From Bryum argenteum (Eukaryota; Streptophyta; Bryopsida; Bryales; Bryaceae), in the NCBI GenBank assembly GCA_037043015.1, contig CM073326.1, positions 9,122,345 through 9,186,344 of the forward strand: a stretch of 64,000 bases of DNA, in the 5' to 3' direction. The notes under the pieces are model-generated. The model was given only the letters and a program-made list of their open reading frames with translations, was not told the origin of the DNA and did no database searches. The translations under genes were made by a program, and so were the position numbers. Within the stretch, counting starts at the first letter, position 1. Each line of letters opens with the position of its first letter. This document shows positions 3,670 through 56,328 of this stretch, in pieces.

Positions 3670-5861
3670 CTACATGATGCTGCAATTTCCTGGACCTCCA
3701 AGAGGGTCTGCTCCCGAAAAATCTGGTAGCCTGCCACATACAACTCAATCAATGTTACCGCCTTTGCATCATCCTCCCCGCTCAAGTAAGTATTCTCATA
3801 GATCACGAATCCCACAACATGCTCCTGCCGCCTTTAATCTGATTCATAGCGTCTCTATCACTACACTTAACTCCTACAGTTAGGTCGCTGATCATTCAGC
3901 TTCACTTGTTAACAGAGCAGGAAGCTTACACTGGCAAGCCGTCTTCTCCGAGCTCCAGTCCAGGTGCAAGCTCCCGGACGATATCTGGAGGTGGTTGCCC
4001 ACACTCTTGCATGCTCTGCATCAGATCCACTATTTTCTGAAAATCGTCTGGTGTCGTTTCATAAGCATGGCACAACTGCTTGATGAAGTCGTATTGTCTC
4101 ATGTAGCGCGCCCTGTCCTCGCTGCTGAGCTCCGCCTTATGCGTCTCCAGCCACTCCGGGTACCGCTCTCCTATCTCCTTCATCGGCTCGTACAACACTT
4201 CCTTCGACAGCAGTTGCCGCATCATCGTATCCATCAGCCCCTGCATATCCTGCACACCCACCCGGTATAAGATCATCACATACAGAGGATGGACCAGCAT
4301 TGAGGCATAAGAGAGCTCCCACTACTGTAAGCTGCTAGGGATTACCTGACTTCCGCCTAGAGCTTCGAACTGCTTCACGAAGCTTTCCATGTCGTCGGCC
4401 TCCGCGGGAGCTGCATCTATGTTCTCAACCGTATTCCGTGTCTGCTCGGCCAGTTTCTGCAGAGTTGCTGACAACGTCGTCTCCGGCTTCGACTGGGCAC
4501 TTCCACCACTGACATGTTTATCTTTTGATCCCTTACCACCTGCTTTCTTCTTCCCAGACGACAGCGATGGTAGCCCCGTGCCCAATCCTTGTCCTAGAGT
4601 AGCCTTTGTTACTGCACTCGACTGCGAGCCACTTCCTCCTGAAGACCTGAGATCATGCCCATTTTCAGAATCTCCACAACCACATCGTATGCCATACTAA
4701 TATGACAAATCGTATGACAAATGCCTTATGTCCTACTTCCTCCATATGTACTATCTAGACTCATTCAACTACTTCACAATCAGGGTAGAAAAAAAGTAGC
4801 AGAAAATGATCTTACTTTGAACTCACGCCACCACTCACGCCCCGGAAATCATCCAAAGCACCTGCAAACTCAAAAACGAGCTCCATTCATCAGAAAGATC
4901 ATACAATTACGCCACCGCTCGCCTCTCATCTCCACCATACCGAGTCTACAATATAAGAAAACTCTGACCAGAACCAATGAAGTGCAAACCTCACCGACAA
5001 GCATGAATTCGTCACTCAAACAAAGATACACTGATAAACATCCAATTTCCAGAATTTCAAACAGGAAACCTACACCCTGCATCTCTCTCTAAGGGCAAGG
5101 AATCAACTCAGCTCGCACAATTGTTCCCAGTGACTACGTATACTAGAATTCAGAATTATACTTTTCATACAGCATTCAAATGCTTAAGTCCTCTGCAGCC
5201 AGTAACATACAGCCATACAGCCATACAATAGATCTCCTAACCTCAAGGCTCATCAACAAGTTGCTTTCCACAACAGGCACTTAAGCTTCTACGCCATGAA
5301 TCTCGTCAACCCTAACGTAAAACCCTAATGACGAGACTCGAATTCGCACCAGAATCGCATTATGCATTCTGCTAACGCAACACGAAACTACGCCTGCTCA
5401 ACCCACCCACGGGAAGGACAATTCCGATTCTCGACAAGAGGAAGCAGACCGAATCTCGTAAAAGATCAAGATAAGCTTTCCTGTTTGAAAGCTCGAACAC
5501 AGCTTAATTTCATAATTCACGTTTCTTCCGTCTTCGTAGACAATCGCAGCCACTAATTGGATTATATATTGCCATGTAGAATTCGCTACAAAACCCTAAA
5601 ACCTCTTCAGGCTCTAATGAGTCTGCGGACTCGATAAGAGAAAGAGAATTGATAGAATCTTAACAGGGGAACGAACAAACGGAAGAGGAAAGTCCGTTCG
5701 TAAGCATGGCACTCCACTGCGAACTCAAATCTCCATGAAAATTGTTAGATTAGAGGCTCAAAAGAAGAGCGAGAAGCAGGGCAGAAACGCAAGGGGGCAT
5801 GAAGAGGGCAGAGTCACGTACTATCGAGTAAATCGTCGTCGAAATCCTCGTGGTCGGCCAT
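3670..5861 (-). CDS. PEX19: PEX19, farnesylated peroxisomal membrane-protein chaperone/import receptor
   Basis: Five exons fit with GT-AG ends and unbroken phase: 5822-5861, 4816-4861, 4346-4646, 3930-4249 and 3670-3730, giving 255 aa, the usual plant PEX19 length. PEX19 binds newly made peroxisomal membrane proteins in the cytosol and docks on PEX3. The N-terminus has the acidic PEX3-binding start (MADHEDFDDDLLDS, then ALDDF). A Gly/Ser/Lys linker follows, then the helical cargo-binding domain (ESFVKQFEALGG, then DMQGLMDTMMRQLLSKEVLY). The last exon encodes 20 residues ending in GNCSIM, a CaaX box (CSIM) for farnesylation. Reading through the donor at 3929 would stop after LPV and lose the CaaX, so the splice decides the C-terminus. 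The start ATG is at 5861. Intron 1 is about 960 bp. Confidence 0.95.
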
Positions 5862-16118: not shown

Positions 16119-16849
16119 ATCCGCCACCCAGTGTCAAAGAGAATTGCAGAACTGCATCAATCGATCGTCTCTCCCAAAACGAGGTGCGAGAGGGAAAACT
16201 GTGGAAGGCTGTAGAAGGAGAAAGGAAAACACCTGTTCCTGCCATGTGAGTGAGAGATATTCGCCGGTCGATTCGTTTCGGGATCTGGCTGGGTCAACTT
16301 GGGTGTTCCCTCTCTCTGCCCCCTGCCCTACGTTTCCTTCCTGCCCCACTTTTTGGGCGGCGATCAAAGTACAAAGTAAAAGTTGCTGGAAGGCGGGGGG
16401 AAGGGGGGGGTGGGGTTGGTATCACTTCCACTGTAGCTTGCCTCGTCGGTTTGGTTTGTTGTCCCAATCTCCTTCCTTCTCCCAAGACTTTCTCACTTCC
16501 TTGCCGACCTTCCTCCTCTTTTCGAGCTTCCTCTTCTTCTTCCTCTTCTCGATCGAATTTTGATCGCAAGGTCCGTTTCTTTTTCAATTGTCTGCGCCAT
16601 TGCCTCAGGAGCTTGTTCTTGTTCCGATTGGATGGGGCTGTTAGTTTCCTCTTCCACATGCTTTCGTTTCATGGTCACAATTGACAATTGAGTCCGTTTT
16701 TCTTTGATGACTGAGGTTCTTGTAATGTGGATCGGAATGGGATCAAATTTCGCAAGATTGGATTACTGAACTGCTCGCCGAACCCTGATTGGATTTCTCG
16801 TGAGCTAGAATCTTACTGCGTTCGTTTCCATGGGTTGCAGCAGCTATCA
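16119..16849. promoter_or_regulatory. Shared bidirectional promoter region of DCP2 and CNX1
   Basis: The 731 bp between divergent start codons must contain both promoters and leaders. It is strongly pyrimidine-rich on the plus strand (about 16440-16600, many CTTCCTC words), consistent with a CNX1 leader. No clear TATA box was seen. Confidence 0.5.
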
Positions 16850-23124: not shown

Positions 23125-23365
23125 ACAATACTAGGTAAATTCTTTGATCAATCAAGACGTGATAAACAATCTCCCAATTGTAGGGCATAGGGTGATGTTT
23201 TATAGATTGGTACAAGGGAGGAGGTTGGATTACTATTTCTTTTCTATACAGAATCTTCTAATTTGTCGTCAAAATCTCAAGGCCTTACCATGCACTCCAC
23301 TTTCTTTAATATATCAATTGGATTCATTATTAAGGATATGCATAAATATCTCTTATTATCAAGTA

Positions 23366-23580
23366 CACTGAATAGGTAGATTAGTGTTAGATTTTTATAA
23401 GATTTGAAAATGCTGTAAGTTTTTACTTCTGGTGAAAAAATTACCAAGAGTATTGAATCCAATACCGTGGAAGGATCCCCATCTTGACAGATGTTGAGGG
23501 TAAAAATATTGATCAACAGTAAAAACTTATAACATGTTTATATAAATTAGTGTATCTAACACTTATCTACCTATTTAGTG
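23366..23580. mobile_element. MITE with long terminal inverted repeats, TA-flanked (copy 1)
   Basis: A 215-bp segment begins CACTGAATAGGTAGAT and ends with the near-complement ATCTACCTATTTAGTG. The inverted repeat continues into TAGTGTTAGAT and, after a short gap, TAAGTTTTTACT, so imperfect complementarity exceeds 60 bp per arm. TA lies on each side (23364-23365 and 23581-23582), the usual Tc1/mariner target. A sister copy lies at 38779-38994. It has no coding capacity. Confidence 0.75.
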
Positions 23581-23656
23581 TACTTCTCTTTGACTCACTT
23601 TCAATCTCCTGGTTAAGGTGGTGGTCATGTTGGCACAAAATTAGTAGCAAGTTTGG

Positions 23657-23768
23657 CGTTTCTATATTGTTGGCATAGAAGTAGGTGATTGTTCTTCATA
23701 GGTATGTATCACGTTTCTATATTGTTGGCATAGAAGTAGGTGATTGTTCTTCATAGGTATGTATCACG
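23657..23768 (+). repeat. 55-bp perfect tandem duplication
   Basis: CGTTTCTATATTGTTGGC at 23657 is repeated at 23712, and the full 55-bp unit (ending GGTATGTATCA) is identical in both copies. Identity implies a recent duplication. Confidence 0.9.
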
Positions 23769-38418: not shown

Positions 38419-38778
38419 AAAAGACCACTTGTACTGTACATTTCAGATTTGTAGCATTCATTGCATTATCCAAGTGTGAGCATAAGTGAGTTTCGGAGCT
38501 AATTTACTTTGATTTGGATCTTTCTCAAATTACCTTCTATTGCTGAACTTGTAATCTGGTAGTCACATCATTTACCTCCATGTATACTTGAGTCGTCAAC
38601 TAATCGCATATTAAATGCATTGTATCATAATATATGAATGATTAAAGATAATAAAACTATGTATTTCTACACTCAGTTTTGGTAGTCAGTCAGTGTACTG
38701 TCTGTTCGACCTACTCTACCCTTGATGGTATATCCATAGGACATAGCGGAAGTAGTATAGGAAGAAGAAAAACAACTA

Positions 38779-38994
38779 CACTAAATTTGATAATTAGTGT
38801 TAGATTATTATAAGATTTGAAAATGCTATAAGTTTTTACTTTTGTTTAAAAAAATTTACAAAGAGCATTGATTCTGATATTGTATAAGGACCCCATCTTG
38901 GCCAATATAGTGGGTAAAATTATTGAACAACAATAAAAACTTATAACATGTTTATGTAAATTAGTGTATTTAACACTAATTATCAAATTTAGTG
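38779..38994. mobile_element. MITE with long terminal inverted repeats, TA-flanked (copy 2)
   Basis: A 216-bp segment begins CACTAAATTTGATAATTAGTG and ends CACTAATTATCAAATTTAGTG, exactly complementary over 21 bases. TA lies on each side (38777-38778, 38995-38996). The interior (ATAAGATTTGAAAATGCT, AAGTTTTTACTT) matches copy 1 at 23366-23580. Terminal arms differ between the copies (AATAGGTAGAT versus AATTTGATAATT) but each is self-complementary. Confidence 0.8.
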
Positions 38995-39183
38995 TACTTC
39001 TCAAAATAAAAGCTCCGCTCCTTCTTGAGAGTCGCTTCACTTGGAGCTTTGGGATTGCAATGCGTGCACGAGCTGAAACTTCACATCATGTATTTGTCTC
39101 TCTCTCTTTAGCATTCCGGCTACTCCTCCACTTTTGCTTCCCTCAACTTTTGTTAGGTCTTTTGCTCTCCAGCTTCTGATTAA

Positions 39184-40506: not shown

Positions 40507-40516
40507 GCCACATATG
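40507..40516 (+). repeat. Left copy of 10-bp target-site duplication of the large MULE
   Basis: GCCACATATG here is identical to 56319-56328 on the far side of the element. A 10-bp duplication fits Mutator-like elements (usually 8-11 bp). Each copy sits 13 bp outside the conserved GTGTGAG start of the inverted repeat. Confidence 0.8.
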
Positions 40517-40529
40517 GGGGAAACCACCG

Positions 40530-40563
40530 GTGTGAGCGTTGAGCGGTGAGCGGTGAGCGGTAA
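40530..40563 (+). repeat. Left terminal inverted repeat of the MULE, built of GAGCGGT heptads
   Basis: Starts GTGTGAGCGTTGAGCGG and contains GAGCGTT followed by three GAGCGGT units; a further GAGCGGT lies a few bases inward. It is identical in reverse complement to 56272-56305. Tandem heptads at a terminus could be transposase-binding sites. Confidence 0.9.
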
Positions 40564-41298
40564 AGTTTGAGCGGTAAGAAATAAAAATTTTAAAAGTTAA
40601 TGGCCCTATTACCATGGAATGAGTGGTTTTAAAATTTTGAAATGGTTATTTTTAGGCATAAAAGTACCCAAAACCGTGGACATAGGGTAGTGTATCCATT
40701 TCGATATATGGTAATGGGGTCCTACAATATTACATAATTAATCCACATTTGCAAATTTAAATAAAAGTCAATTAAATTATGGGCTCGCATCATCATGTGT
40801 AACCAATTCAATTCAAATCAAATCCAAAATATAAACCAAAAGTTGGGATGGCCCTTTCGGTAATCAATAAGTTTCATTTATCGATTTTAAGATTTAGAGA
40901 CTAATTAGGGCTGACGTCATCAATTTCCTATTTCACATGTTAGAATTATATGCAAATGCTACAGTTTATATAATCTGAAATTTATAACTACAGGTCGTAT
41001 TTCCGTGTCTCCTTGAAAGGTGAACAGAAAGACATTCATGATTTCACGTGGCATTGTAGTGGTCCAAGTTCGATTCTCCTCGGCCTCGTTTGAGCGTTGC
41101 ATTGCGTCCTAAAGCAGCTATCCTGAGCTATACAAATACTGGACTAGAACCTCTACCATCATTGGCAAGATTCAAAAAATCCAAACTGGAAATAAAGAAA
41201 CGTTTAGAAACTTTTAGTTCGCTTTGAGTTTAAAAGTTTTACATTTACATGAATTAAGAAATTGTAAAACGTTGATAAGTAATAGGTAAACGTCATAT

Positions 41299-41316
41299 AT
41301 ATATATATATATATAT
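41299..41316 (+). repeat. (TA)n microsatellite
   Basis: About ten TA/AT units in the left arm of the MULE. Simple sequence. Confidence 0.9.
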
Positions 41317-41416
41317 AAAATAGTATAACAAAACCACACGTATGACCAATGCCGTAGGCCAACTATAGATATATGACCGTACATGGTCCAAACCAAAACT
41401 AGGACAATAAAATCAC

Positions 41417-44400
41417 CTAGGAAGCTGATGGTGAACGACCGTTAAAGTGTTGATCACACTGATCAGCCTCATCGTCTATAAACGCAAGCACTCTCGAGCT
41501 AAAGCGTCGACGTCTACTAGTGTCTGATATCACGGGAGAAGGGGCAGCGACGAAATCCTGAGCTATCATCTCCGCATAAGATGGTAGAGCGAAACTTTGC
41601 GGAGGACTGCTGTAGAGACTTCCGTCGCCAATCAAGAGTCGATTTGAACCTGCGATTCTAAAGTACAGAAAAAGTCAGTACCAACAAATAATTAGCAACT
41701 GAAAGTGACAATAGAAGGAAGGAAAATAAGATATTATTACGCACAAAATGTTGGGCGTTGCTTCTTCGGAAGCGGCTCAGAACTATCACTGACGTAGTCA
41801 TAATCCGGAATCGAATCGCCGCTTTCTTCCTCAAAAGCGGTACCATCCACGTATGCCGATAAAAGACCGTCAAATATCTCTTCGTCAGCTTCAACTGCAA
41901 TTAGATGACGGTTTGATCGCGCGCACGCAATCACGGAAGCACCTACATACAAGCAACCAACATCAGAACTACAGTATTGAATAATATGAATGAGAGTTGG
42001 TAGTAGCAAGAACAAACCTGTACTAGGGCTCCAGTCAAAGACGATTCCACGCTCGTCAGTGAGAGAATCAATGAAACATTGGATGAAGGATGGATCCTTC
42101 TCACGCGAGCCACGCCACGGGGTACCATCTTCCTTCTTACGAATGGAGTCTTTGCTCGCGAAATTGAAAACATGGTCCTCCTCGTCGGGAAGAATAGGCA
42201 CACCTGCATACTCTTTCGCAACCTGCTTGATGGTGAATCTGGTAGCGAAAGACTTCCGAACAAAGACCTTGATGTGAAAGTTGCGAGTCTGCAAAATTCA
42301 ATCCATTAGAACGATTTAAAAAAATGTTTTAAATAAGTCAAATACTATTGATTTGAATGCAGAATGAAGGCCATACCGTTTTGACGTGAGGGTTTGTTGA
42401 GGCCATTGGCATGGGATTATATCCCCACCAATCTCGAACCATTCGGAAATCAAAAGCCTTTGATTCCGTATCCAGAGCTTTCTCGACTCGACGGTCCTTG
42501 GGGTGCATTACAAGTATCGCACCCTCGTCCGTCAAGTTGTAGAAACCAAAGAAGAAGACACTCTCGAAGTAGCTCTTCTCTCGCTTGTTCCATGAAGGGA
42601 TCTCGACGGGCGACACGTCGGGCACGGGTAAGTTCTCCGGAACGTCTGCGTAGATTAGATCAATGCCGGGATGCGGGTGTTTCGTGCCCATCTCCTTACA
42701 TGGGTACTTCCTGTCCTTGCTAATCTGTAAAAATCACAGAAAGTTAGACATGTTAAAAGCAAAGTGTTTCATTCAAAATTTCAGAAAGAAAATAATGTAC
42801 AAAAAATTATAAGAAGTATTACCTTTCTGATGTGGTTGATGATGTCCAGGACTTGCGTGTCCCACTCTTTAGTATCATGAGCTGCCTTCTGCACAGAGGA
42901 TCCAATATCCCCTTTCTCCAAGTACATAGGGAGATGAATTGTAATCTCTGAAGACAAACAATCTACAACGTGTTTCGGTTCGAGAAAAGGGAGGGTAGCA
43001 AACTTCTTCCCCAAGTTCAGATCAAAACCGCATGAAGGCGGTGGTGAGGAAGTATTTGTAACACCACCTGTCGAGACTTGAGTCGAATTTGCAGCAAGGC
43101 TTCGACGATGGCCAACAACTCCATGACCAACACCTACACCGGAGCCGCTGGGTGCAGAATTCTTGCGTTTCTTTCCTTTCGCTAGGGGTTGTGCAAGGGC
43201 TTCGACTTCATGTACTGCGGCTACTGGCGGAGGGGGGGATGCACCTGGCAAGATGGAGAAGTCGTTGTCGTCGTCCTCGACCATTGCTTCGGTAGCGACC
43301 GCCTTGTAAGGATCTTGAACTAGATGCTTCTCTTCCCGGTGGACAAAGTTGTCGTGACACTCGAGAAACCAACCTCCTGTTATCAGTTGTGCACTAGTAA
43401 AACGCTTCTGCTGGTGATCAGAAAACATTTTGTCTGGATCTTCCTCGACTACCACGTCTTTAAAGACGGAAGGAATGTTCGCAGCGGCAAGGCCTCCCTT
43501 GGGCACGAGCTCGTGCTTGATGTACCTACACGTTGAAGTAAACTTGTAAACGCTTGAGATCAAATGAATATAAACAATGCATGAGAAATAGGATTCGAAA
43601 TAGAAATGTACCTGAAAACCAATCGGTTTCCTGTCTCTACACCACCCGAAATTTTCTCTAGTTTAGAGCCTTTAAGGAACTTCGGGCTCGCATTGGACCC
43701 GAGGTAGTTCTCGAAGGCCTTATCCCAGAGAATAAGCCTCCATTTCTCGACGTAGTCAAGAGGCTTAAGAATGCTCTCATTCCAAGTAATGAGGAATTTT
43801 TTTTGTATTTCTTCAAGCTTTTCTTCCAAGTATTTGGCCAGCTGTAGTTGGATAACAAACGTTAGAATAGAAGTTTGGAATACCGTTGAAATAAATGTGG
43901 ATGCAATAATATGAGCACAGTGATGTGGTTACATGTGCCCATAAAGAGGCGCGATTAAGCCAGACACTTAGTGGTTTATTCTGGACCGGCACAGGGAAGT
44001 GGTTGGCCTCGCGAACCTCAAACGAGGAATTCCACCAACGAAGCCATTGTGTCTTGAAATCCTTGTGGCAATTTGTCGTTGCGATCGAATGCAAGCGGTC
44101 CAGTGTGAATTCCGGAATGAGGTTCTTGCTGTAGTGCGAGTAGATCTGCGAAGTCGATGGACAATGAGTAGGTGAGTAACGAAACTAAAATTTAATGTTC
44201 GGATTTCCAAAAAAAGTTAAATGGCATACCTCTTTGGCCCATTTGCCACCGAGGTCTTTGTTTGCAACGGCCAACATCCTATCAAATTCCTTCGAGCGGA
44301 TTTTCCATATTTCCAATTTCCGAGCATTATCCATGGCAGTCCAGACCCCCGATGCGGTGCGCTTGTCAATTGGAGTCTCGGAATTGTATTCTGCTTCTGC

Positions 44401-45629
44401 ATCATCTGATGCCTTCGCAATTCTCCTCTGCAACAAATACGGATGACAAGTATGAGCTAATAGTAATCGATTGAAATAAGTTAAGGAAAAGGTTTGGAAG
44501 ATTCAGAATTTTTACCGCGTATAGAAACTTCACAAACACGTCGACCGCGAGTGAGTACCATTTGTCTTTCTTCTTCTCCTTCACTCTTTCTGAAATCTTG
44601 TAATCCTCTTTGCTGATGAGGTCTTTGAAATTTGTGAGCTTTAGTTTGCCAAATTTCCGCATGCGCTGGAGCTGGGAGCAAAAGTTATCCTCGACATGCG
44701 CATTCTCTGTGGACCTGTTCACAACATTAAGTGAGACAAATATAATGTGTAGAGAGAGTGAATAAAAAGAGTATGAAAATTTAAGAAGCTTACCAGTTAA
44801 TATCAGCCATTGCATTTAGGAGAACATTCCTTTCTTGCCGACCGTCAAGAACAATGCACTCTACAGAAATGTACCATGGCCTTTCGTCAGGATGATACCG
44901 CTCGATGTGCCTATTCCATGCGGTCACGCGATGATTTCCTTCATAAATGTAGAAGTACTTATCGCTGAACTGATGGAGGTCTGGATCGGCCATCAAGAAC
45001 TCCTCAAACTCGTCATTAACAGCTTTCCAATGAGGATTTTCCAAAAAGCCGTCAGTCGGCTTAACAGGACACAACTCCGCCTTGGTGGAGTATAGTGAAA
45101 CGTATAGAACACGATCACCTTCCCGGTACCCCATGTTAAATTCTTTCATGAGTTTTTCAACATCAACGTCAATGATCGGACGCACCTTTGGATGAGTTTT
45201 TAATCGACACAAAGGTATGTTGAAGCGGGATTTGTTAACCGGTTTGTTCCGAAGCCGGTTGATGACATGAATATGCTCACCCTTGTGCAATTGTCGCATC
45301 TCCTCTCCAATCCACCCGGCGTCCTTGCCCTTCAGATGGTCCGGCATTTTGAGACCACTCACGTCATCTGATTCCGAGAGAGGAGACCCAACATCACCTT
45401 CAACAGTCGTAACTTCGTGTCGTGAGCGCTCTTGAGTGGGCAGTTGAGGTGAAAGAGGCTGAACGAGCAATGCCTCAAATGCTCCGGAGTCAATGTCACC
45501 CGTGGGAGTTTCCTGAATGTCATCACTTGGAGGTATCTTCTGAGTGTCGGGGGAAGGAATCGGTCCAGAGGGCGACGGCGGTTCACGAGCGGCCTCTTCA
45601 TTGAATTCAGGATCGCTTGGGCCTCCCAT
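41417..45629 (-). CDS. Transposon-borne ParB-like / DNA-methyltransferase-like protein, 1,146 aa
   Basis: Ten exons join with GT-AG ends and no phase break: 44794-45629, 44516-44714, 44230-44427, 43933-44145, 43612-43841, 42823-43525, 42377-42724, 42018-42288, 41741-41942 and 41417-41657. Residues about 140-290 resemble a ParB/sulfiredoxin-like domain: KVRPIIDVDVEKLMKEF, then FYIYEGNHRVTAW (E230-G-N-H-R234), then strand and helix, as in ParB G-x-R-R-nucleotide folds. Residues 813-1035 resemble a beta-class N4/N6 aminomethyltransferase: motif IV-like DLIYADVPEN (815-824; canonical form DPPY), W-N-K-R and FFFGFYNLTDEGAILVMHP, and then motif I-like VFDWSPSTG with ASVIACARSNRHLIAVEADE (992-1025). 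ParB-methylase fusions are known in bacteria and phages. A basic patch (KGKKRKN) may be a nuclear signal. The altered DPPY and glycine motifs leave catalysis in doubt. The gene model is strong; function is inferred. Confidence 0.65.
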
Positions 45630-45804
45630 CTATCAATTTCAAATAGCGAATTGAGACAGAAATAAAAAGTAAACTTCGAACGGGCAAAATAACATAATAG
45701 AAATTATCATAGATCAAAATGTGATTAGAATACAATACTCATATCAAGAGTCAACCAAGTTTGAACTAAGTAGACATAGACATGAATCTAGTTGATCTGC
45801 AGGC

Positions 45805-48800
45805 AAACACATTCGACGCCGCAAGTATCAAAATCTGTTTCGCTCTCAATGCTCCACTTCAGCTCCATGAATACAATCTGCACAAACATACAGGTAGTCA
45901 TTAGACACATTTCACAAGAAGAGGGGCAGCCCGTTGACTCCAATTCTCAGAGTGATCATCGAAGAATTTAGGTGAAGCCATCTCAATAAGCACGAAACGC
46001 CAAAGAACCACAGAAGTTTTGAGAGCTAATAAGCTTGTGCCAAGCGGAATTAATGGCCACTACCGAAGAATGCAGGGAAACAAATTCGGCGGCGTAAGTA
46101 AAAGGAAACCACCAATCAAAATGCAGAGGGGTCACGAGCTCCCCTAGCTCACCGACCATGACCTTCGACGAGGGCATCGTCAATACCAAAGATCAGAGAT
46201 CATGAACTGACAGTGCAATTTCGAAATGCACGGAAAACAAATTCGTCGGCGCAAGTAAAAACAAACTAGCAGACAAAATGCAGAGGGGTCTCTAGCTCCC
46301 CCTACCTCACCAACCATCACCTTCCGGAGGGACTCCTGAATACCCACTATCATGACCTGACAATGCAATTTCGGAATGCAGGGAAACATATTCGACGGCG
46401 CAAGTAAAACGAAACCAGCAATCAAAATGCAGGAGGGTCAGTAGCTACCCCAAGCTCACTGAACTTCACCTTCGAGGAGGGCCTTGTCAATACCAAAGAT
46501 CATAGATCATGAACTGAGAATGCAATTTCGGAATGGAGGGAAACAAATTCGACGGCGCAAGTAAAAGCAAACCAGCAGACAAAATGCAAATTGGTCACTA
46601 GCTCCCCTAGCTCACCAACCATGACCTTCTGGAGGGTCTCGTGAATACCCCCTATCATGACCTGACAATGCAATTTCAAAATGCACGCAAACACATTCGA
46701 CAGCGCAAGTTAAAGAGGACCAGCAACCAGCCGTCACTCGACATCACCAGCTACAGCCCTCGAGGAAGAGCTCTACAAAATCTAAGATCATGACCTGATT
46801 CCAAGTACAAAAAAAACACATTCGGCGCCGCAAGTTAAAGAGGACCAGCAACCAGCCATCACCAGCTACAGCCCTCGAGGAAGGGCTCTACAAAATCTAA
46901 GATCATGACATGATTCCAAGTACAAAAAAAAAACACATTCGGCGCCGCAAGTGACAGCACATTCGGGGAGCAGACTGATAACCTGAAACTCAAGCCGTAT
47001 CACACAGCTCACAGGGAAGGTGAGCCCACCCCTCCTTGGGACTCGACGTTAACTAGGATCTGAGTGCTGGACCACCCCCCACTTTCGGTGCCAAAAACGC
47101 AAACACATTCGACGGCGCAAGTTAAAGAGGACCAGCAACCAGCCATCACCAGCTACAGCCCTCGAGGAAGGGCTCTACAAAATCTAAGATCATGACCTGA
47201 TTCCAAGTACAAAAAAAACACATTCGGCGCCAGTAGTGACAAAGACATTCGGGGGAGCGGATCGATAACTCGAAACTCAAGCCGTATCACACAGCTCACA
47301 GGGAAGGTGAGCCCACCCCTCCTTGGGACTCGACGTTAACTAGGATCTGAGTGCTGGACCACCCCCCACTTTCGGTGCCAAAGACCCAAACACATTTGAC
47401 GGCGCAAGTTAAAGAGGACCTGCATCCAGCCATCACCAGCTACAGCCCTCGAGGAAGGGCTCTACAAAATCTAAGATCATGACCTGATTCCAAGTACAAA
47501 AAAAACACATTCGGCGCCGCAAGTGACAGCACATTCGGGGAGCAGACTGATAACCTGAAACTCAAGCCGTATCACACAGCTCACAGGGAAGGTGAGCCCA
47601 CCCCTCCCTGGGACTCGACGTTAACTAGGATCTGAGTGCAGGACCACCCCCCCAACTTTCGGTGCCAAAGACACAAACACATTCGACGGCGCAAGTACAA
47701 AATATGACAAGCAGCAATATGCACAGGGGTCACTAAAACTGGACGCTGGCCATCATATCTATAGGCAAACACATTCGTTGCCGCAAGTGAAAGAGAGCAA
47801 GTAAATAATCCACCACAAAAAATACCACGACAAAAAACATGATCTTGACAACACGTTCGGGGAGCAGACTAACACCCTGGTACTCAGCATGTATCACACA
47901 GTTCACAGGAATGGCCGATTGAGTGAGCCCACCCCTCCCTGGGACGCGACGCTAACTCAATATCATGACGTATTTCGGGATTCTGGCAAACACATTCGAC
48001 GGCGCAAGTAAACAAGATGACAAGGAACCGACATGCACATGAGTCACTGGAACTTGACTTCGCCAGCCAGTACCTCCAAGTAAGGGCTCTAGCAAATCCC
48101 AGATCCTAACCTGTTTCTGATCTCGTGCAAACACATTCGTGGCCGCAAGTAAAAGAGAGTAAAGAATAGATGTACTGGGGTCATTTGGACTCGATCACCA
48201 AAGCCATCAATTCCGAGTACGGACTCTGCAAACCCCACAATGAAGACACGTTCGGGAATGCAGACAAACACATTCGACGGAGCAACATAAAAGGGATCAA
48301 CAACATAGATGCTTAGGGGTCGGCCATTACATATGAGGAGGGATCGACCGAACCATAGATCATGACCTGTTTCGGTATGCATGAATCACATTCGACGGCG
48401 CAAGTACAAAAGAGGACAAGCAACAAGATGAACAGGTGTCACTAGGACTCGACCTCGCCGGCCATCAACTCCGAAGAAGCTCTACAAAGTCTAGGATCGT
48501 GATATGTTTTTAATCTGCAGGCAAACACATTCGTTGCCGCAAGTGAAAGAGAGCAAGAAAAAAATCCACGACAGAAAAAATTTAACAACAAAAAAATGAT
48601 CTTTATAGCACGATCGGGGAGCAGATTCACAGCAAGGTACTCAGCACGTATCACATAGTTCACAGGAATGGCCGATTGAGTGAGCCCACCCTTCCCTGGG
48701 AGCCGACGCTATCTACGATGTATGTTCAGGAGCTCCCCATTTTCAGAGCCAAGGACCAGCAACATTGATCCACAGGGGTCACAAGCTCCCCTCTTACTCA

Positions 48801-49400
48801 CTGGCCATCGCCTTCGAGGAAAGGCTCGACAAACCCCAATATCATGACCTATTTCGGAATCCAATCAAACACTTTCGACGGCGCAAGTAAACAGACTGAA
48901 ATTGCCAACACATTCCAGCAGCAGACTGAAAACATGGGACTCAGGGATTCAAAACAGAAACAACTGCCAGGGGTCACCAGCTCCCCTCTTCCTCACAGGC
49001 CATCACCTCCGAGAAGGGGCACATCAAAACCCCGAGTCAGGCCCTGTTTTGGAGTACTGGCAAACACATTCGACCACGCAAGTAATGCAGACCATAAAAA
49101 CATTCGTGCTTTCAATTCCCGGCATAAAATTGAAGTACACAGCACATTCGGGGAGCAAACTAACTATCTGGGACTTAGCCGATGTCAAACAAATCTCAAG
49201 AAATCGGAATGACTGAGCCCACCCCTTACTAGGAATCGACATTGACTGTGTCCGGAGTGCAGAAGCTCTCATGTGTGAAACTCAAAGATTAGGGGTCACC
49301 TGTTTCTGAGTGCAGGGACACACATTCAACGGCGCAAGTACAAGAAGTCCAGTAACATAAATGCACAAAGCTCACTGGACTTGACTCCAACGGCTATCGC
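45805..49400. repeat. Iteron-like array: about 22 copies of a CATTCGACGGCGCAAGT-type motif
   Basis: Near-copies of CATTCGACGGCGCAAGT, mostly preceded by AAACA and followed by AAA, occur all in one direction near 45.81, 46.08, 46.24, 46.39, 46.55, 46.70, 46.82, 46.94, 47.11, 47.22, 47.39, 47.51, 47.68, 47.78, 47.99, 48.14, 48.27, 48.39, 48.53, 48.87, 49.07 and 49.32 kb. Variants carry GGCGCCGCAAGT or GTTGCCGCAAGT. Spacing is about 90-340 bp. Higher-order units of about 288 bp (47.10, 47.39 and 47.68 kb) are almost identical. A second motif, GTGAGCCCACCCCTCC, recurs about six times. The array begins some 180 bp upstream of the ParB-like gene's start codon. The conserved core amid diverged spacers suggests a protein-binding site. 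Confidence 0.85.
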
Positions 49401-49786
49401 CTATCAACTGAGTCGTAGGACTGGGCCTCGACAATCACAGACAACCGCCGATTGCGTCCTCTGCGAAACTACGATACAAGCTTGTTTCGGAATGCAGGTA
49501 ATCTCATTCGAATTCAACATTCATCGGCTCGAAGGAGAGGCTGATTCACATCCCACATGACAGTGAGTTCCGGAGCAAACAAACACTTCCGACAGCGCAT
49601 CTACGAACTACACTCGGCACGCATTACTCAATTCACCAGACACACCGAATCAGTTCAGCGATCTCTAACTATAACAAGCCGCGGCATCAACTACGTTAAC
49701 TGGTCGTCAGTGCAAGACCGCCATTCCTTCGGAGCAAACAACCAGTAACATAATCGCTCAGATTCACTGGGCCTCGACCTCACAGA

Positions 49787-50400
49787 ATGAACTGGACTAG
49801 GGTTTCACTACAAGATACAATGACAAGGACAGTGCATCACCTCTGCTCCGTCGCCCTCCACCGCGCAATGGCCACAGCTCCTTCGGCGTCTCGTTTGGGT
49901 GGAGATTCGTCCACTTCAGTTCTGCAAAGATTTACCGCCAGCATGTTGTTGACCTCGAAACAAAGGCAGGACTTACTGCGTTGAGCACGACCTCCGACCT
50001 CTGCGTGCCTCCCTCCACGATGGTGAGCTCATCTGCTATTCTTCTCTCTATTTCTCTGATCGCAAGTTCCTCCTGCAAAAACCAATGCATCTGTTGAACA
50101 AGATAAACTGAATAGGGTTTCAGGTGCTCCTATGTCCCCTCTGGCAAGCGGCCCATCAGCCCGACCGGCATCCACTTCCAGCCGCACATCTGCCCGTCCC
50201 GGCAGCGGCGCCAGGCCGCCGGCATCACCACTGTAAACGTTACCGGTACCGGCCTGGCACCTGCACGGTCCATCACCGGCACTCGCACCACCACGATCGG
50301 TACCGGTACCAGCACAGGTCGGGCCATCTCCGACGGAGCACGGCACCGCCATCAGTGTCGGACCCGCCACCATCACATTGATTCGAAGTTACTTTTTTCC
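49787..50400. other. GC-rich segment with GGTACCGG repeats inside the MULE
   Basis: Composition rises sharply in GC, with words such as GGTACCGGTACC repeated around 50235-50320. Open frames exist on both strands (a 115-codon frame on minus at 50029-50376, an 85-codon frame on plus), but the low complexity of their products makes neither convincing. It may be the leader or promoter of the transposon genes, or captured host DNA. Confidence 0.35.
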
Positions 50401-50770
50401 TAAACTCATTCTTTGCTATGAAAATTATAAATATATAACTTCTTCCGTCATTTTACGCAGTTATTATACATTTGTTTCCTCTCCATCATGAATTATGAAG
50501 TATCATGAAAGGAAAGTTTTAATACATGCAATCGTGTATAACTTTTTTAACTATCACATGGCAAACATGTCATACTCGTTTATAATTTACCACGTACCCA
50601 TTACATTTACATCAATGACTCCTAGATTTGTATATGGATGTTCTCTATAATTCATATCACTGTCAAAACAATTTTTGCAGTACAAAATCACTATAAAATA
50701 TTTTACTAAGTCTTGCGTCCACATATATCTTGTAGCCCTTCTACGTATCCTTCAAAAAATACTATCAAAA

Positions 50771-51505
50771 CTACATCGAATTGAAGAATGAACTCTCGTT
50801 GATTGTATACTTAACCAATCCTAGGTCCTCCCAGTAAACCAGGAAGTAAGGTTTCTCAAGTACCTCCTCTAATTCTTCGGCACTTGTCTCAAATCCATCC
50901 GCTACATCATTCTCTGTCCTTTGATGAGAAGAGACCTCTGCACTGTCGACTGTAGTAGTGACTCTTTTCTCCTCAATAATTGCTGCTTCATCTCCTGATC
51001 CATCATCTTTCTCTTCCAATCCTTCCCGATGCTGAAGACAAAACATGCTCATATTAATTCATAAACATAATCGATAATATGTTGACTTCTACAAATATCC
51101 ACATATTTGTAACAACCACTAATTTCATACCTCATACTTAGAGTCAACACCACCATCGTCATCCCCGTACACAACAACATTATCGATGGCCGTCCTGAAC
51201 TGCCTTCTACCCACTTCCTCCCCATCTTCTTCAACTTCGTCCACTCCGACATACTCCGCGACACTGTCGAGGTTGAGGGTTCGCATCTTAATACTCCGTC
51301 TAAATGGCGGTAGCACATCATCGTCTATCAATATATCGTACCCGTCTGCCTCGCGATCATCGCCGCTAGAGCTTGTCCCATCCCGCTTCCGCAAAGCACT
51401 TCGCTTCAGTGCTTTAGAATTACTGAACTTCATACCACCCCTTCGCTTCTTCTTTTTCTGACCTATTTCTTTACCTCTCTCACTACCGCTAGTAGTTCCG
51501 TCCAT
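50771..51505 (-). CDS. Transposon accessory protein, 211 aa, unknown
   Basis: Two exons fit in phase: 51131-51505 and 50771-51030. The start ATG (MDGTTSGSERGKEIGQ) is at 51505; the upstream codons lack an ATG. The first half is basic (KKKKRRGGMK, then LKRSALRKRDG), compatible with nuclear entry and DNA contact. The middle is acidic (DEVEEDGEEV), and the C-terminal exon is Glu-rich before ending in PYFLVYWEDLGLVKYT. I recognise no family. Its place just upstream of the transposase and on the opposite strand recalls second proteins of autonomous Mutator elements (such as MURB), but no sequence likeness is visible. Confidence 0.5.
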
Positions 51506-51996
51506 GCACCTTGCTTGGAGATAACTTAACACACGATCGACCTTACGAGTCTAAGTTTTCACTTTGAATGAAGAGGTCGAACTACTGGATTCAACTCCAT
51601 TATATCGACTCTAAGTCTGCGGCTAATAAACCCTAATCATCCTTTGCTAACTCCATAACACGCCGCGGTTACCATGTCTGACATTCCAAAATAAGCTAAC
51701 TTTTGAACGCATCTATCATCCACCTGTACCTCTGACAATGACTGCCGCCGTCACTTTACCGTCCACACCTACTTCTCTTAATTAACCAGAGATCGGATAT
51801 TTTTAATCCTGAATATTTAATGTAACTATGTCAGTCCAGCAATTTTAAGTATTAAAAGTAATGTGCTTTCAAATCATCATGCTCAAGATTAACAGTATCG
51901 AGTATTTGTACGCTTTATTATGAGAAATTACGACTCATAGGTATTCAGTACGTATGCAAACAACCTACATCAATTTATCCTATTTGAACATTCGAA

Positions 51997-54900
51997 ATGC
52001 ACCTGAGACTCTCTTTCTCCACGCACTTGTTTATGTTGTCTTCCTCGCCGCCGTCTATCATGGCATCCTCCGCTCCCCTGCCTCACGCTCCAGACGTCAT
52101 CGCCATTAGGTCTGAAGACTTAGGTCCTCCCATTTGCATTCCTCCGGGGGTGGATGGAGTTGCAGAAGTCACTCCGTCTTGGCTAGCAATTCGTTTTGGG
52201 TTTGATGAGTCTTCTCTCTGGTTAGAGAAACATGTCTTGGATCCAAACACTACTCTTGTCCAGTACTCCGTCCTTGTCGAACCGATCGACCTAGAAAGTA
52301 ATTGTAGAATGTATAAGCTACAGCCCGGACAGTATCGACTCTACGGCTTAACAGAGTCTGTCATGAACGCCTCCACCGTCCTGCTCAATCCTCGTAGTTC
52401 TTCTACCATCTCCACAGTTGTTCCAGTACTTGCTTGTGTCAAGGTCGAACCCGGACTCGAAGTCCGAATTGATATTTCCGATTCATCGGACGATGAGAGA
52501 AAATCGTCCATCCAGTCCCGCCGACTATCATCAAGTCTGCCTCCACAATCGTCTGGTTCTTAACACAGTCTCAGAACCACCCCCGTTTCTTTTCCCGCCT
52601 CGAAAGTCGTAAAACCTAAAAACATTCTTTCCTCCCTCCGTAGACTAGGTAGCATGTCCCGAAACAAAACTATACTAAAAAAATCGATTTCCATTCCATT
52701 CGTACTCACAGCGTTTCTTTCCTGCCTCCCACTTTCAATGGTGATGTCCTATACATACTCCCTCCTGTTCTACCAACTACTACTGTTAAGGTAGCCAAAT
52801 CTATGGAGGGGATGGACAAAAGATACGACGGTCATGTGTGGACCAGGACAATGACTACTAACATCAGTAACAACCTCGGTCTGTCATTCCGCTACTCTAA
52901 CTGTGTAGGTCATCTTCAATGCCACAATAAGAACTGCGGCTTTTTGCTTCGACCTGACCGCAGAGCACAAGTGAATGAGGTGGAGTTCGAGGGCTTCACC
53001 AAGGACCCCTTCTCTGTCGGCCACGCGTCTCCTCCTTCTTCAACACTAGTCTGTAAGATCTGCAAAGAACCTCCCGTTTGTGTTGCTCTATGTCCTTCTA
53101 AAATATTTTACGTATTCGGAGAGGAGAGTCAAGAGCGGGCGTGTGTGCATATCGGTACCCACGAACATCCTGTCAAGGTCGGAGACTATAGGTGTGCACG
53201 TAAAATAATTGATGAGTTGATAGAGGAGCACGTAGAACGTAACCCACAAGCTACCACGTCCAAAATAGTCATGGAGGCAAGCAAAGACTTACTCGGAAAC
53301 TTACTTCTCCGAGAAGAAGGTGACCCTGTAACCTCCAAGCTCACCCTTCAGGAGTTAGAACCTATCTTCGATCAGTGTAAGGAGCTGAACTCTCCAAGCG
53401 TCAGGAATCGTATTACCACTTTTAAGCACTTGCGCAGATACGGTGTTCTTGATGGAATCACCAAGCTTCGAGGCCTCAGCAACTGGGCTTACATCCAACG
53501 TAACCAGTTCCCGGGCCAAGGAGATGAAAGTGACAAAGTGTTCATTTTCAAGATATCCGAGGTCGGCCCCGGAAGCGGTGTTGACCTTGTTCGCCGTATG
53601 CAGCCCCGAGGCGACCTGTCCCACGTGTGGATGATGTTCGACCACGTCAAGCGTGTTAAGAACTGGACTACCATGGCGTGCCACGTTTATGACTCAAAAA
53701 TCTGCCGCATTCTAACTATTGCATGCTGTGATTTCCAATCTGAAGACGGAGAAGCTCAAATCGTCTTCTGGAAAAACCTAAACCACGTTATGGGCAGGAA
53801 CGGAGTGGAAGCGCCGCAGTTTCAAGGGTTCATGGCCGATAGTGCGCAAGCCAACTGGAACGCTGTGCGGATCATTTACGGCTCCGGAGACTCTAAAGAG
53901 CCCATGGAAGGCCGCGTGCGGACTTGCTACTTCCACTGGACGCAATCCCTAGAGAAACACACCAAGCAATACATCGTGCACGAGCTACAAGATCAACATC
54001 GACACCTCTGTAAGCAATACAAAGATGCACGCACCATGGCTGAGGCGGAGACAAGATACTGGGCGATCCGAGCGTGGTGGGCATCGGCGCATGCCACCTC
54101 TGAACTTGGATTAGGTCACCTTGAACATTGGCTTGCATTCTGGCACTTCCGATATAGGCAATGGGGTGGCTTCATGGAATTGGTGAGTCCACAGCCACCG
54201 TAGCAATCATGTACATGTGCATTTAGGTATAGTAAATCCGTAAAAAAAATTTACTTTTTACTAGATAATATTATATTTTTTTGAACTTTTACACTACCAA
54301 ATTTGTTTTTGAAAAATATTTTATAAGATCAAACTTGCGGCGCCGCAAGTTTAAATCGCTCTTGATAACGTGATGAACTTATTCTGTTAATAAGTGAACT
54401 GTCTTTGCACCTGGCAGGAAAATAAATATTCAACAGCGGAGCTGGCCGAGATGCCATCATGTAACCTTGCGGAATCTATCCATAACAAATGGTTGCAAGC
54501 GTCCGGCAACAAGGGTGGGGACTTGTACGTTGCAGCTGTAGATGATTATGTTCGTGCTTTCCTCCAAGTAGTAGGTTACCACGACTTCAACGGAGGTGGC
54601 AAGGGTGGTAGTGGACCAACATCTGAAGAACTGTTACTTCGTGTTGCCCATAAAGCTCAACGAACCGGCGATCCATCAGGCCTCACAAAGGCAGTTTCTG
54701 ACTATCCAGGAGCTGAAAAGATTTATACCCGCGACGCCCACCTTGAGGAGGCCGAGGTGTTCGGATCCAAGAAACGTAAGGCTAATGTTCCAATTGGAGC
54801 TGATGATGAAACGCACAGACCTGACACCGTGAGCTACTCACGTCCTCGAATTGGGAGAAGGGTTACCCGAGCTTGTACTGAAAATTTGAGTACTATCCAT

Positions 54901-55853
54901 GAAGAGGATGAAGTTGAGGAGCTACCGACAATGCCATCCACTTTTGCTGGACCTAGTATTGAACGTGTGACTGCTGTTCAGGAGACTAAAGTAGACGAGA
55001 GGTTGTGGCACATTGCCCGTTTGAGGGAGAATTCTGCCAAGGCTTGTTGGGGTATCATGCGAAAGAGTAAAAAAAGATGTGACTCACGAATTATTCAGAA
55101 GGGGAAGGCGACCGCAGCTCCAACTTACACCGGAGTATGGCAACGCCCTCAAGAGGGGCCAAGAAAAATTGATCAGTTCTTTTTTTGTGCGGATGATATT
55201 GACAGGTGTGTGAAGGGTCATCGTCGCAAGTGGATTGAGCCATTCTCTCTAAGTCAGGACAGACCCCCTATTCCTTCAATATGGCCTGTTAAGAGACTAA
55301 CCTTACACGTGATGAGATGGAGGCGTTAGAGAATGCGGGCTTTCGACTACCACAAAAAGAACAGCTTCCTACGAACCGCACTTTCAATAATGTCGCCCCA
55401 CCAAGAGACTTGTCCCATATTCCAGTCCCGGAGAAGCCTGACGTGTTCCCTAGGTCAAGAAGATCGAAGAACATGAAACGCATTCCAGCTATGACTTCAA
55501 AGCACATGAAGAATATTGAGTCTGCCACCTCAATGCAGGCCAAAATTCTGAAGGTGACCATGATCCCGCAGCCTGGTTTTGGGTGTATCGTAGACTTGGA
55601 GTCGGATTCGGATGCAGTTTATAGACTTTCAATTAGTAAATTCCCGGATTGCTCATGCCCAGTGTTCAAGAAAACAATTTCTGCGTTAGGACGGAGAGAT
55701 CCATATCGACCGTGCAAGCACCTATACTTCATCACGGTATTGGTTTGCAAATTTGATCCGGATGCTGACCTCTTCATCCACGCGGCCACTCTTAGTTTCA
55801 ACGAGGTGAAGAAGATTCTGGAGAGAGGAATCCTAGACCATGCTACAGATTAG
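51997..55853 (+). CDS. MULE transposase with Cys/His zinc module, DDE core and SWIM finger
   Basis: Coding blocks: 51997-52563 (188 codons, with RFGFDESSLWLEK), about 52712-54182, 54418 to about 55300 and about 55300-55853. The exon end at 54182 (TTG then GTGAGT) and the start at 54418 (GCAG then GAA) join in phase. The second block opens with LPPTFNGDVLYILPPVLP and GMDKRYDGHVWTRT, then a C-x3-H-x2-C-x4-C module like WRKY-GCM/FLYWCH fingers. The DDE core follows: MMFDHV (first Asp, about 53641), FMADSAQANW (second, about 53837), CYFHWTQ, then helices with HLEHW. The last block has a SWIM finger: C-S-C (55650-55658) and C-K-H (55712-55720). The first junction is unresolved, and the third and fourth blocks overlap in different frames near 55317-55329, so a small unseen intron or one frameshift is present. 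Confidence 0.75.
54331..54352. promoter_or_regulatory. Perfect 22-bp palindrome in a transposase intron, sharing the iteron core
   Basis: Centre CTTGCGGCGCCGCAAG with AAA and TTT at the outer ends (one A and one T of each lie beyond the quoted 16 bases). Its right half, GGCGCCGCAAGTT, equals the core of several iterons (for example near 46.82 kb). It lies in the intron 54183-54417. Confidence 0.7.
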
Positions 55854-56271
55854 TTTGGATTAAATCTCCGCATCTACATATGCTATATGTTAGTCTTATG
55901 AGTGGGTGCTCCACATTGTATGTGATATTGTTTCACAACTTATTAAAAATAATTATATCAGTACCTACATGTACAACAAACCTTGCCAATTTGTCTAACT
56001 TGGAGTACTATTCACTTAGAAATATTACCTTGGGAACGTCTTGTAATTTTCAAATTGTGATTTACTGTCGAGTTTTGTAGCTCAAGTCCAACCAAATTCA
56101 GAGAATGTAAGCCTTATTTCCACGGGTTTGGGTCAATAAATCGACGGTAATAAGTCAAGAATATTCGAATATTCCTGAGAATATTCGAAAATGATTCCGT
56201 AATACCAAAAATTTATCTATTTTTAGATTTTTTTGCTAAAAATACAAACTCGGTCCTAAAAATTTGAAAAC

Positions 56272-56305
56272 TTACCGCTCACCGCTCACCGCTCAACGCT
56301 CACAC
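56272..56305 (-). repeat. Right terminal inverted repeat of the MULE
   Basis: Exact reverse complement of 40530-40563. The inner flank then diverges (AAGTTTTC versus AAAGTTTG). Confidence 0.9.
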
Positions 56306-56318
56306 GGTAGCAACGTCC

Positions 56319-56328
56319 GCCACATATG
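56319..56328 (+). repeat. Right copy of 10-bp target-site duplication
   Basis: GCCACATATG, matching 40507-40516. Confidence 0.8.

Follow-up and report, generated by a model that had tools for sequence, protein, structure and literature searches.

The window analysed here, a stretch of 64,000 nucleotides from the moss Bryum argenteum (NCBI GenBank assembly GCA_037043015.1, contig CM073326.1, positions 9,122,345 to 9,186,344 of the forward strand), contains a DNA transposon of 15,802 bp at positions 40517-56318. The element, likely a Mutator-like element (MULE), carries a transposase gene on the plus strand, a large left gene and a smaller third gene on the minus strand, and an array of 23 conserved boxes. 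The protein predicted from the left gene combines a methylase-like domain with a probable ParB-like region. The arrangement is read as a ParB-methylase module on a MULE-like plant element; similar partner genes are already known from algal transposons. It is proposed, tentatively and with slightly less than even confidence, that the element has its own epigenetic module, in which the left protein reads the boxes and would keep copies of the element expressed against silencing.

Ends of the element and its transposase

The 10-bp sequence GCCACATATG abuts the element exactly on the left (40507-40516) and on the right (56319-56328), and these two copies are its sole occurrences in the window. In the left end (40517-40568, plus strand) a perfect 34-bp inverted repeat at 40530-40563 is identical to its partner at 56272-56305 in the right end (56267-56318, minus strand); the longest match among 300 random pairs of 100-bp stretches was 11 bp. 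These terminal inverted repeats are built from a 7-bp unit. A preliminary description, made from the sequence alone, had proposed a single transposon with matched 34-bp inverted repeats and a 10-bp flanking duplication, and all of this was confirmed; the element is taken as real. The outermost 13 bp (40517-40529 and 56306-56318) match poorly between the two ends except for the initial GG, despite abutting the duplication. No other convincing pair of ends was present among 23 inverted pairs, and the idea of a nested second transposon was set aside.

The transposase gene includes an exon at 52803-54182, an intron of 235 nt (54183-54417, GT...CAG) and a second exon at 54418-55328, all on the plus strand. 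Residues picked by eye across these two exons are D280, D346, CYFH (375-378) and the tryptophans 443, 447 and 454 in the first, and E479 (in NLAESIHN), the candidate third catalytic residue, in the second. They fit the MULE pattern, in which CxxH and W lie between the second D and the E of the DDE core; CxxH and W are also found in hAT transposases (PMC5225508). An open frame upstream (52060-52563, plus strand) may be the first exon of the transposase or else a separate gene. The C-terminal part (55293-55853, plus strand) lies in a different frame and shows a SWIM-like pattern, CxC...CxH, for which the Pfam SWIM profile gave an E of 0.23, below cut-off. The frame changes once, near 55.29 kb (55290-55330), and the splice search bridges the change only by a weak intron of 56 nt (scores 3.4 and 1.1). 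The change represents either this intron or an indel, and this copy may or may not yield a full transposase.

Terminal inverted repeats are present in many MULEs and absent from some. The MULE target-site duplication is 8-11 bp, and a C-terminal SWIM-type zinc finger is found in many MULE clades, as summarized in PMC6446971; the present element has an exact duplication of 10 bp and terminal inverted repeats of 34 bp, with poorly matched outer 13 bp. Two core pieces of the transposase matched zero Pfam transposase families at E up to 10, and three exon pieces matched zero Pfam transposase or MULE profiles at E up to 1. Since no such profile was matched, MULE membership is likely but unproven. 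Of the MULE-type transposase announced in the preliminary description, a gene with MULE hallmarks stood, but with one frame change and without a profile match. PF10551 was looked for in two phage records and was present in neither (0/2), which says nothing on the transposase here. The MUDR-type elements with an antisense PMD gene treated in PMC6446971 offer a parallel in their antisense second gene and 8-11 bp duplications, and their SWIM finger may correspond to the SWIM-like pattern here; unlike the left gene, the second gene there belongs to another family.

The left gene and its product

The left gene (41417-45629, minus strand) sits inside the transposon, in antisense to the transposase gene. 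Its predicted model, obtained by a splice search and corrected by hand, has ten exons (45629-44794, 44714-44516, 44427-44230, 44145-43933, 43841-43612, 43525-42823, 42724-42377, 42288-42018, 41942-41745 and 41649-41417) and nine GT-AG introns of 75-98 nt, and encodes 1,142 amino acids with zero internal stops. The automatic splice search alone gave 1,127 codons in this region, against a maximum of 476 (mean 229) in 40 Markov-shuffled copies; G+C is 0.49 in the exons and 0.31 in the introns. The intact 10-exon gene described earlier on this strand is upheld by these figures. MULEs often capture host sequence, and a host gene taken up by a Pack-MULE could be envisaged. Captured pieces, however, are usually fragments, whereas this gene runs from a start through nine introns to a stop, and the domain pair of its product corresponds to that of transposon accessory proteins reported in PMC12477816; capture is accordingly regarded as very improbable.

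By profile comparison, the C-terminal part of the protein is a DNA amino-methylase domain, encoded in exons 7-9 (41840-42724, minus strand). The PADLOC type II methyltransferase model MTase_II matched at E 6.8e-7 (residues 28-242 of 249 queried), and methyltransferase families of PHROGs at E 1.3e-4 and 5e-4. The Pfam family N6_N4_Mtase (PF01555) gave an E of 0.0066, under the Pfam cut-off, and an NCBIfam DNA methyltransferase model 0.036, far under its cut-off. A tblastn search of phages with this region returned 107 records with E of 10 or less; the best 15 of them (lowest E 2e-3) comprised 10 annotated as methylase or methyltransferase under the match, three as hypothetical protein and two without annotation. 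Against a profile of six phage methylases, hhalign gave a probability of 93.9 and an E of 1.5e-7 over the stretch between motifs X and I only; controls with 30 shuffles and with three different segments of the left protein all scored at most 1.1. More weight is placed on the PADLOC and PHROGs matches because the six phage proteins had been chosen with the same query.

The order of motifs is that of the N6/N4 methylases, but the catalytic residues are eroded. The pattern [DNS]PP[YFWH] occurs nowhere in the whole left protein, and its expected place, the motif IV region, reads IYADVPE, with DVPE at residue 820. In the motif I region, 174 residues later, DWSPSTG (residue 994) stands where the six phage proteins show D, two residues, M or I, and GSG. 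Invariant among these six aligned methylases are, in motif IV, the D, the second P and the Y and, in motif I, the G-S-G; the left protein has E instead of Y and STG instead of GSG. In the rotifer N4 methylase N4CMT, a eukaryotic enzyme, changing SPPY to APPA abolished activity, according to PMC8885841. Because the catalytic motif and the S-adenosylmethionine (SAM) loop are eroded, the left protein is probably not an active methylase, and the expectation of a working enzyme had to be given up. Eroded catalytic residues in a frame that stays open over 1,142 codons suggest a protein that was kept while its chemistry was lost; early decay of this single copy may be the alternative.

These residues also bear on active self-marking, in which the protein would bind the element and deposit N4-methylcytosine (4mC) or N6-methyladenine (6mA), as proposed for a protein of the brown alga Ectocarpus in PMC12477816. 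The presence of a methylase domain with the N6/N4 motif order favours this idea, as does its having been the authors' own proposal for the algal proteins; the missing [DNS]PP[YFWH], the substitutions at residues kept in all six phage methylases, and the rotifer mutant argue against it. Active marking is judged rather unlikely.

The ParB/sulfiredoxin-like region lies in exon 1 (44794-45260, minus strand) and is centred on EGNHR (residues 230-234), a GxHR motif, where phrog_1033 gave a weak match at E 1.3e-3. From this match and from the company of a methylase domain, a ParB-like identity is probable. Nothing ParB-like was matched in an NCBIfam scan; tblastn of the region in phages returned nine records, by name none ParB-like; a fold search with the predicted structure of this exon had 0 matches with E at or below 0.001 among 427 with E of 10 or less; and a sequence search of solved structures with two regions gave best E values of 0.55 and 0.74. 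Of the methylase-like and ParB-like parts noted at the outset, the first held and the second was weakly supported. Matches to NNH2 (E 0.0085) and Smr (E 0.19 and 0.047) were under cut-off and were taken as chance.

By its predicted architecture, the left protein belongs to the ParB-methylase accessory class of algal transposons: an N4/N6 methylase domain and an antisense placement inside a transposon are both found here. The closest description is that of Sola1-1_Ec32 of Ectocarpus, a large DNA transposon with a ParB-like plus N4/N6-methylase protein of about 1,100 amino acids opposite its transposase (PMC12477816). Compared by architecture and description only, the two share the methylase domain, probably the ParB-like one, a similar size and the opposite-strand layout; they differ in transposase (MULE-like here, Sola1 there), in host (a plant rather than a brown alga) and in the erosion of the catalytic motif here. 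The box array and palindrome described below likewise have no mention in section 5 of that paper, which deals with Sola1-1_Ec32. Bce_0392 of Bacillus cereus, described as an adenine methylase whose ParB domain nicks DNA (PMC5512222), also joins ParB and amino-methylase domains in one protein; unlike the left protein it is prokaryotic and, in that account, is not said to sit in a cut-and-paste transposon.

We know of no plant gene with the domain pair of the left protein. Among the papers listed in searches of an open-access library, none was on ParB in land-plant or moss transposons, and the main text of a Chlamydomonas paper (PMC8226300) has 0 occurrences of ParB or methyltransferase. The novelty claimed earlier for ParB-like, methylase-like and repeat parts in one plant transposon must be narrowed, since algal ParB-methylase accessories and the protein/repeat pairs of VANDAL elements precede it; neither of these is a plant element with all three.

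Boxes, palindrome and possible self-recognition

The array consists of 23 boxes with the consensus CAAACACATTCGACGGCGCAAGTAAA at 45804-49605, in a single orientation on the plus strand, the first lying 175 bp upstream of the ATG of the left gene. A scan of both strands of the whole window with up to 8 mismatches found 23 boxes on the plus strand, 0 on the minus strand and 0 outside the array, in agreement with the internal repeats reported at first. The array is more than 5 kb from either end of the element. In ungapped blocks of 10 bp, identity averages 86% and 78% in the first two blocks of the box and 62% in the third, and 25-35% in the surroundings. The boxes hold 60 CpG dinucleotides; when 23 windows were drawn at random from the array 2,000 times, the maximum was 42. 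The observed/expected (o/e) CpG ratio is 1.90 in the boxes and 0.57 in the array spacers. Changed cells number 10 of 138 at consensus CpG positions and 32 of 299 at other core positions. These conservation and CpG figures are somewhat favourable because the copies were found by their similarity to the consensus. If the boxes are kept, this would be by selection on the boxes themselves. A second type of box, ACATTCGGGGAGCAGACT-like, at 46957-47895 has its left half in common with the main box; the pattern has four plus-strand copies, one with ACGTTCG, and a single match outside the element, at 3718 on the minus strand.

The right half of the box recurs in the transposase intron as two facing copies, which form the perfect 22-bp palindrome AAACTTGCGGCGCCGCAAGTTT (54331-54352). 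Aside from TA runs, no other perfect palindrome in the 64 kb is 18 bp or longer, and none of at least 20 bp arose in 20 simulated windows. The 9-mer GCCGCAAGT of the right half occurs eight times on the plus strand (seven in the array and one in the palindrome) and once on the minus strand, in the palindrome; a matrix scan for the right half added a single weaker minus-strand site, near 1239.

This arrangement recalls the VANDAL MULEs of Arabidopsis, in which VANC, a protein with DUF1985/DUF287 domains, binds short tandem-repeat motifs upstream and in introns and removes silencing and methylation (PMC5735166, PMC10398659). As in the VANDAL elements described there, a MULE-like transposon with three or more genes has an accessory protein and short repeat motifs in noncoding stretches and introns, and the placement of the boxes upstream of the gene, with a half-site in an intron, resembles that of VANC targets. 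The accessory protein is ParB/methylase-like here instead, no DUF1985 or DUF287 was found in the spliced left protein with Pfam at E up to 1, and binding and demethylation, shown for VANC in those papers, are here conjectural. Arabidopsis VANDALs are classed as non-terminal-inverted-repeat MULEs in one review; a VANDAL clade is listed with 46-174 bp in a table of PMC6446971.

In the mechanism proposed, the targets of the left protein would most likely be the boxes that precede its own gene together with the half-site palindrome within the transposase intron, and by recognising them it would keep copies of the element expressed against host silencing. It might thus work like VANC, by analogy and without kinship. 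Since its frame of 1,142 codons remains open although the residues of the catalytic motif and SAM loop are eroded, the protein would probably work by binding DNA, as a reader or blocker, and not by methylating. A more specific version, a second and independently evolved form of self-recognition in a MULE-like element, in which a dead-methylase reader, CpG-keeping boxes and a palindromic operator would protect copies and tune the transposase, is possible but doubtful.

The array could instead serve the transposase or plain transcription control, with the ParB/methylase protein unrelated to it and engaged, for example, in nicking for excision or re-replication. The start of the boxes 175 bp from the start of the left gene accords with this explanation, and the Bacillus cereus fusion is a nicking enzyme in the account cited above. 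The distance of the array from both ends and its single orientation speak against it, as does the return of the half-site in palindromic form within the transposase intron, an arrangement that would fit a dimeric regulator. It is considered unlikely, with some weight nonetheless. A plasmid-like partition system, in which the ParB-like protein and parS-like boxes would segregate an excised circle, is suggested by the ParB-like motif and the clustered direct repeats. No ParA-like or ATPase match was found among the scanned gene products, a six-frame scan of the whole element not having been made; the ParB domains of phage polyvalent proteins lacking ParA are read as nucleases or NTPases in PMC5512222; and spliced genes and a duplicated target site do not suit a plasmid. 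Partition is thought highly improbable.

Several points tell against reading of the boxes by the left protein as an anti-silencing device. The link between protein and boxes is one that we infer, and, as just discussed, the boxes might instead have a role in transcription or for the transposase. The ungapped comparison overstates the contrast between boxes and spacers because spacer length varies. At 46814-47696 the array has recently been duplicated in tandem, with a 287-bp unit at 93% matches, so some of the box identity reflects shared ancestry. Because its spacers are CpG-poor (0.57), like the flanks, the array as a whole does not resemble a sequence that has long been protected from 5-methylcytosine. 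When scored with all 25 positions of the box matrix, the palindrome reaches 11.4, far lower than the 21.0-43.2 of the array copies and close to the 11.1 of an unrelated site on the minus strand at 16458; because of this low score the tie between palindrome and boxes consists of the half-site and the symmetry alone. The element as a whole has a CpG o/e of 0.90, compared with 0.68-0.75 in 50 windows of equal length to its left and 0.58 to its right, a difference in favour of the proposed protection, but in 3-kb windows the values overlap (up to 0.89 outside, down to 0.74 inside), and higher CpG points to youth or protection alike, so that a young insertion fits equally.

On the protein side, the Pfam scan of the left protein gave zero ParB matches, and hhalign against a nine-row profile of phage ParB proteins, one row of which was garbled, gave a probability of 2.6, although this was the best of 45 comparisons, with scores of at most 1.1 for 40 shuffles and for four further segments of the protein. 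Structure predictions made without relatives were unusable both for the ParB-like exon (predicted local distance difference test, pLDDT, 41.3) and for the transposase exon (pLDDT 32.4). Searches of viral contigs returned 0 relatives of the left protein, 0 matches to the box pattern and three pattern matches to the transposase exon, of which 0 were confirmed; seven matches to that exon in genome contigs gave 0 confirmed.

If the proposed recognition is true, the ParB-methylase accessory proteins of algae extend to a MULE-like plant element, and a candidate target sequence lies inside the same element, a feature absent from the algal account in section 5 of PMC12477816. The action of such proteins on their own transposon would then become directly testable, in parallel to VANC. 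A dead-methylase reader, if real, would also caution against inferring 4mC or 6mA in plants from genes of this kind.

Other features of the element and the window

The third gene (50771-51505, minus strand), which like the palindrome was absent from the preliminary description, was modelled by hand as two exons (51505-51131 and 51031-50771) separated by a clean intron of 99 nt, giving a predicted product of 211 amino acids; the automatic splice search gives 219 codons and two introns. The product is basic near its start (KKKKRR) and acidic further on, and two stop-to-stop frames scanned with Pfam had no match. A G+C-rich stretch at 49841-50380, with repeated GGTACCGGTACC-like letters and without a gene model, is perhaps a captured fragment.

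Scans for tRNA genes (with bacterial settings) and Rfam families found none in the window. The neighbouring genes encode PHD_Oberon with DUF7081, DUF7615, DCP2 with NUDIX, and MoeA_N, and there is an F-box-like frame just below cut-off. Oberon-type proteins point to a plant host, in partial accord with the Pfam description (plant homeodomain finger). Outside the element, a dispersed pair of repeats (23360-23588 and 38773-39002), about 85% alike, lies 15.4 kb apart, and a 55-bp unit is perfectly duplicated in tandem at 23657-23766.

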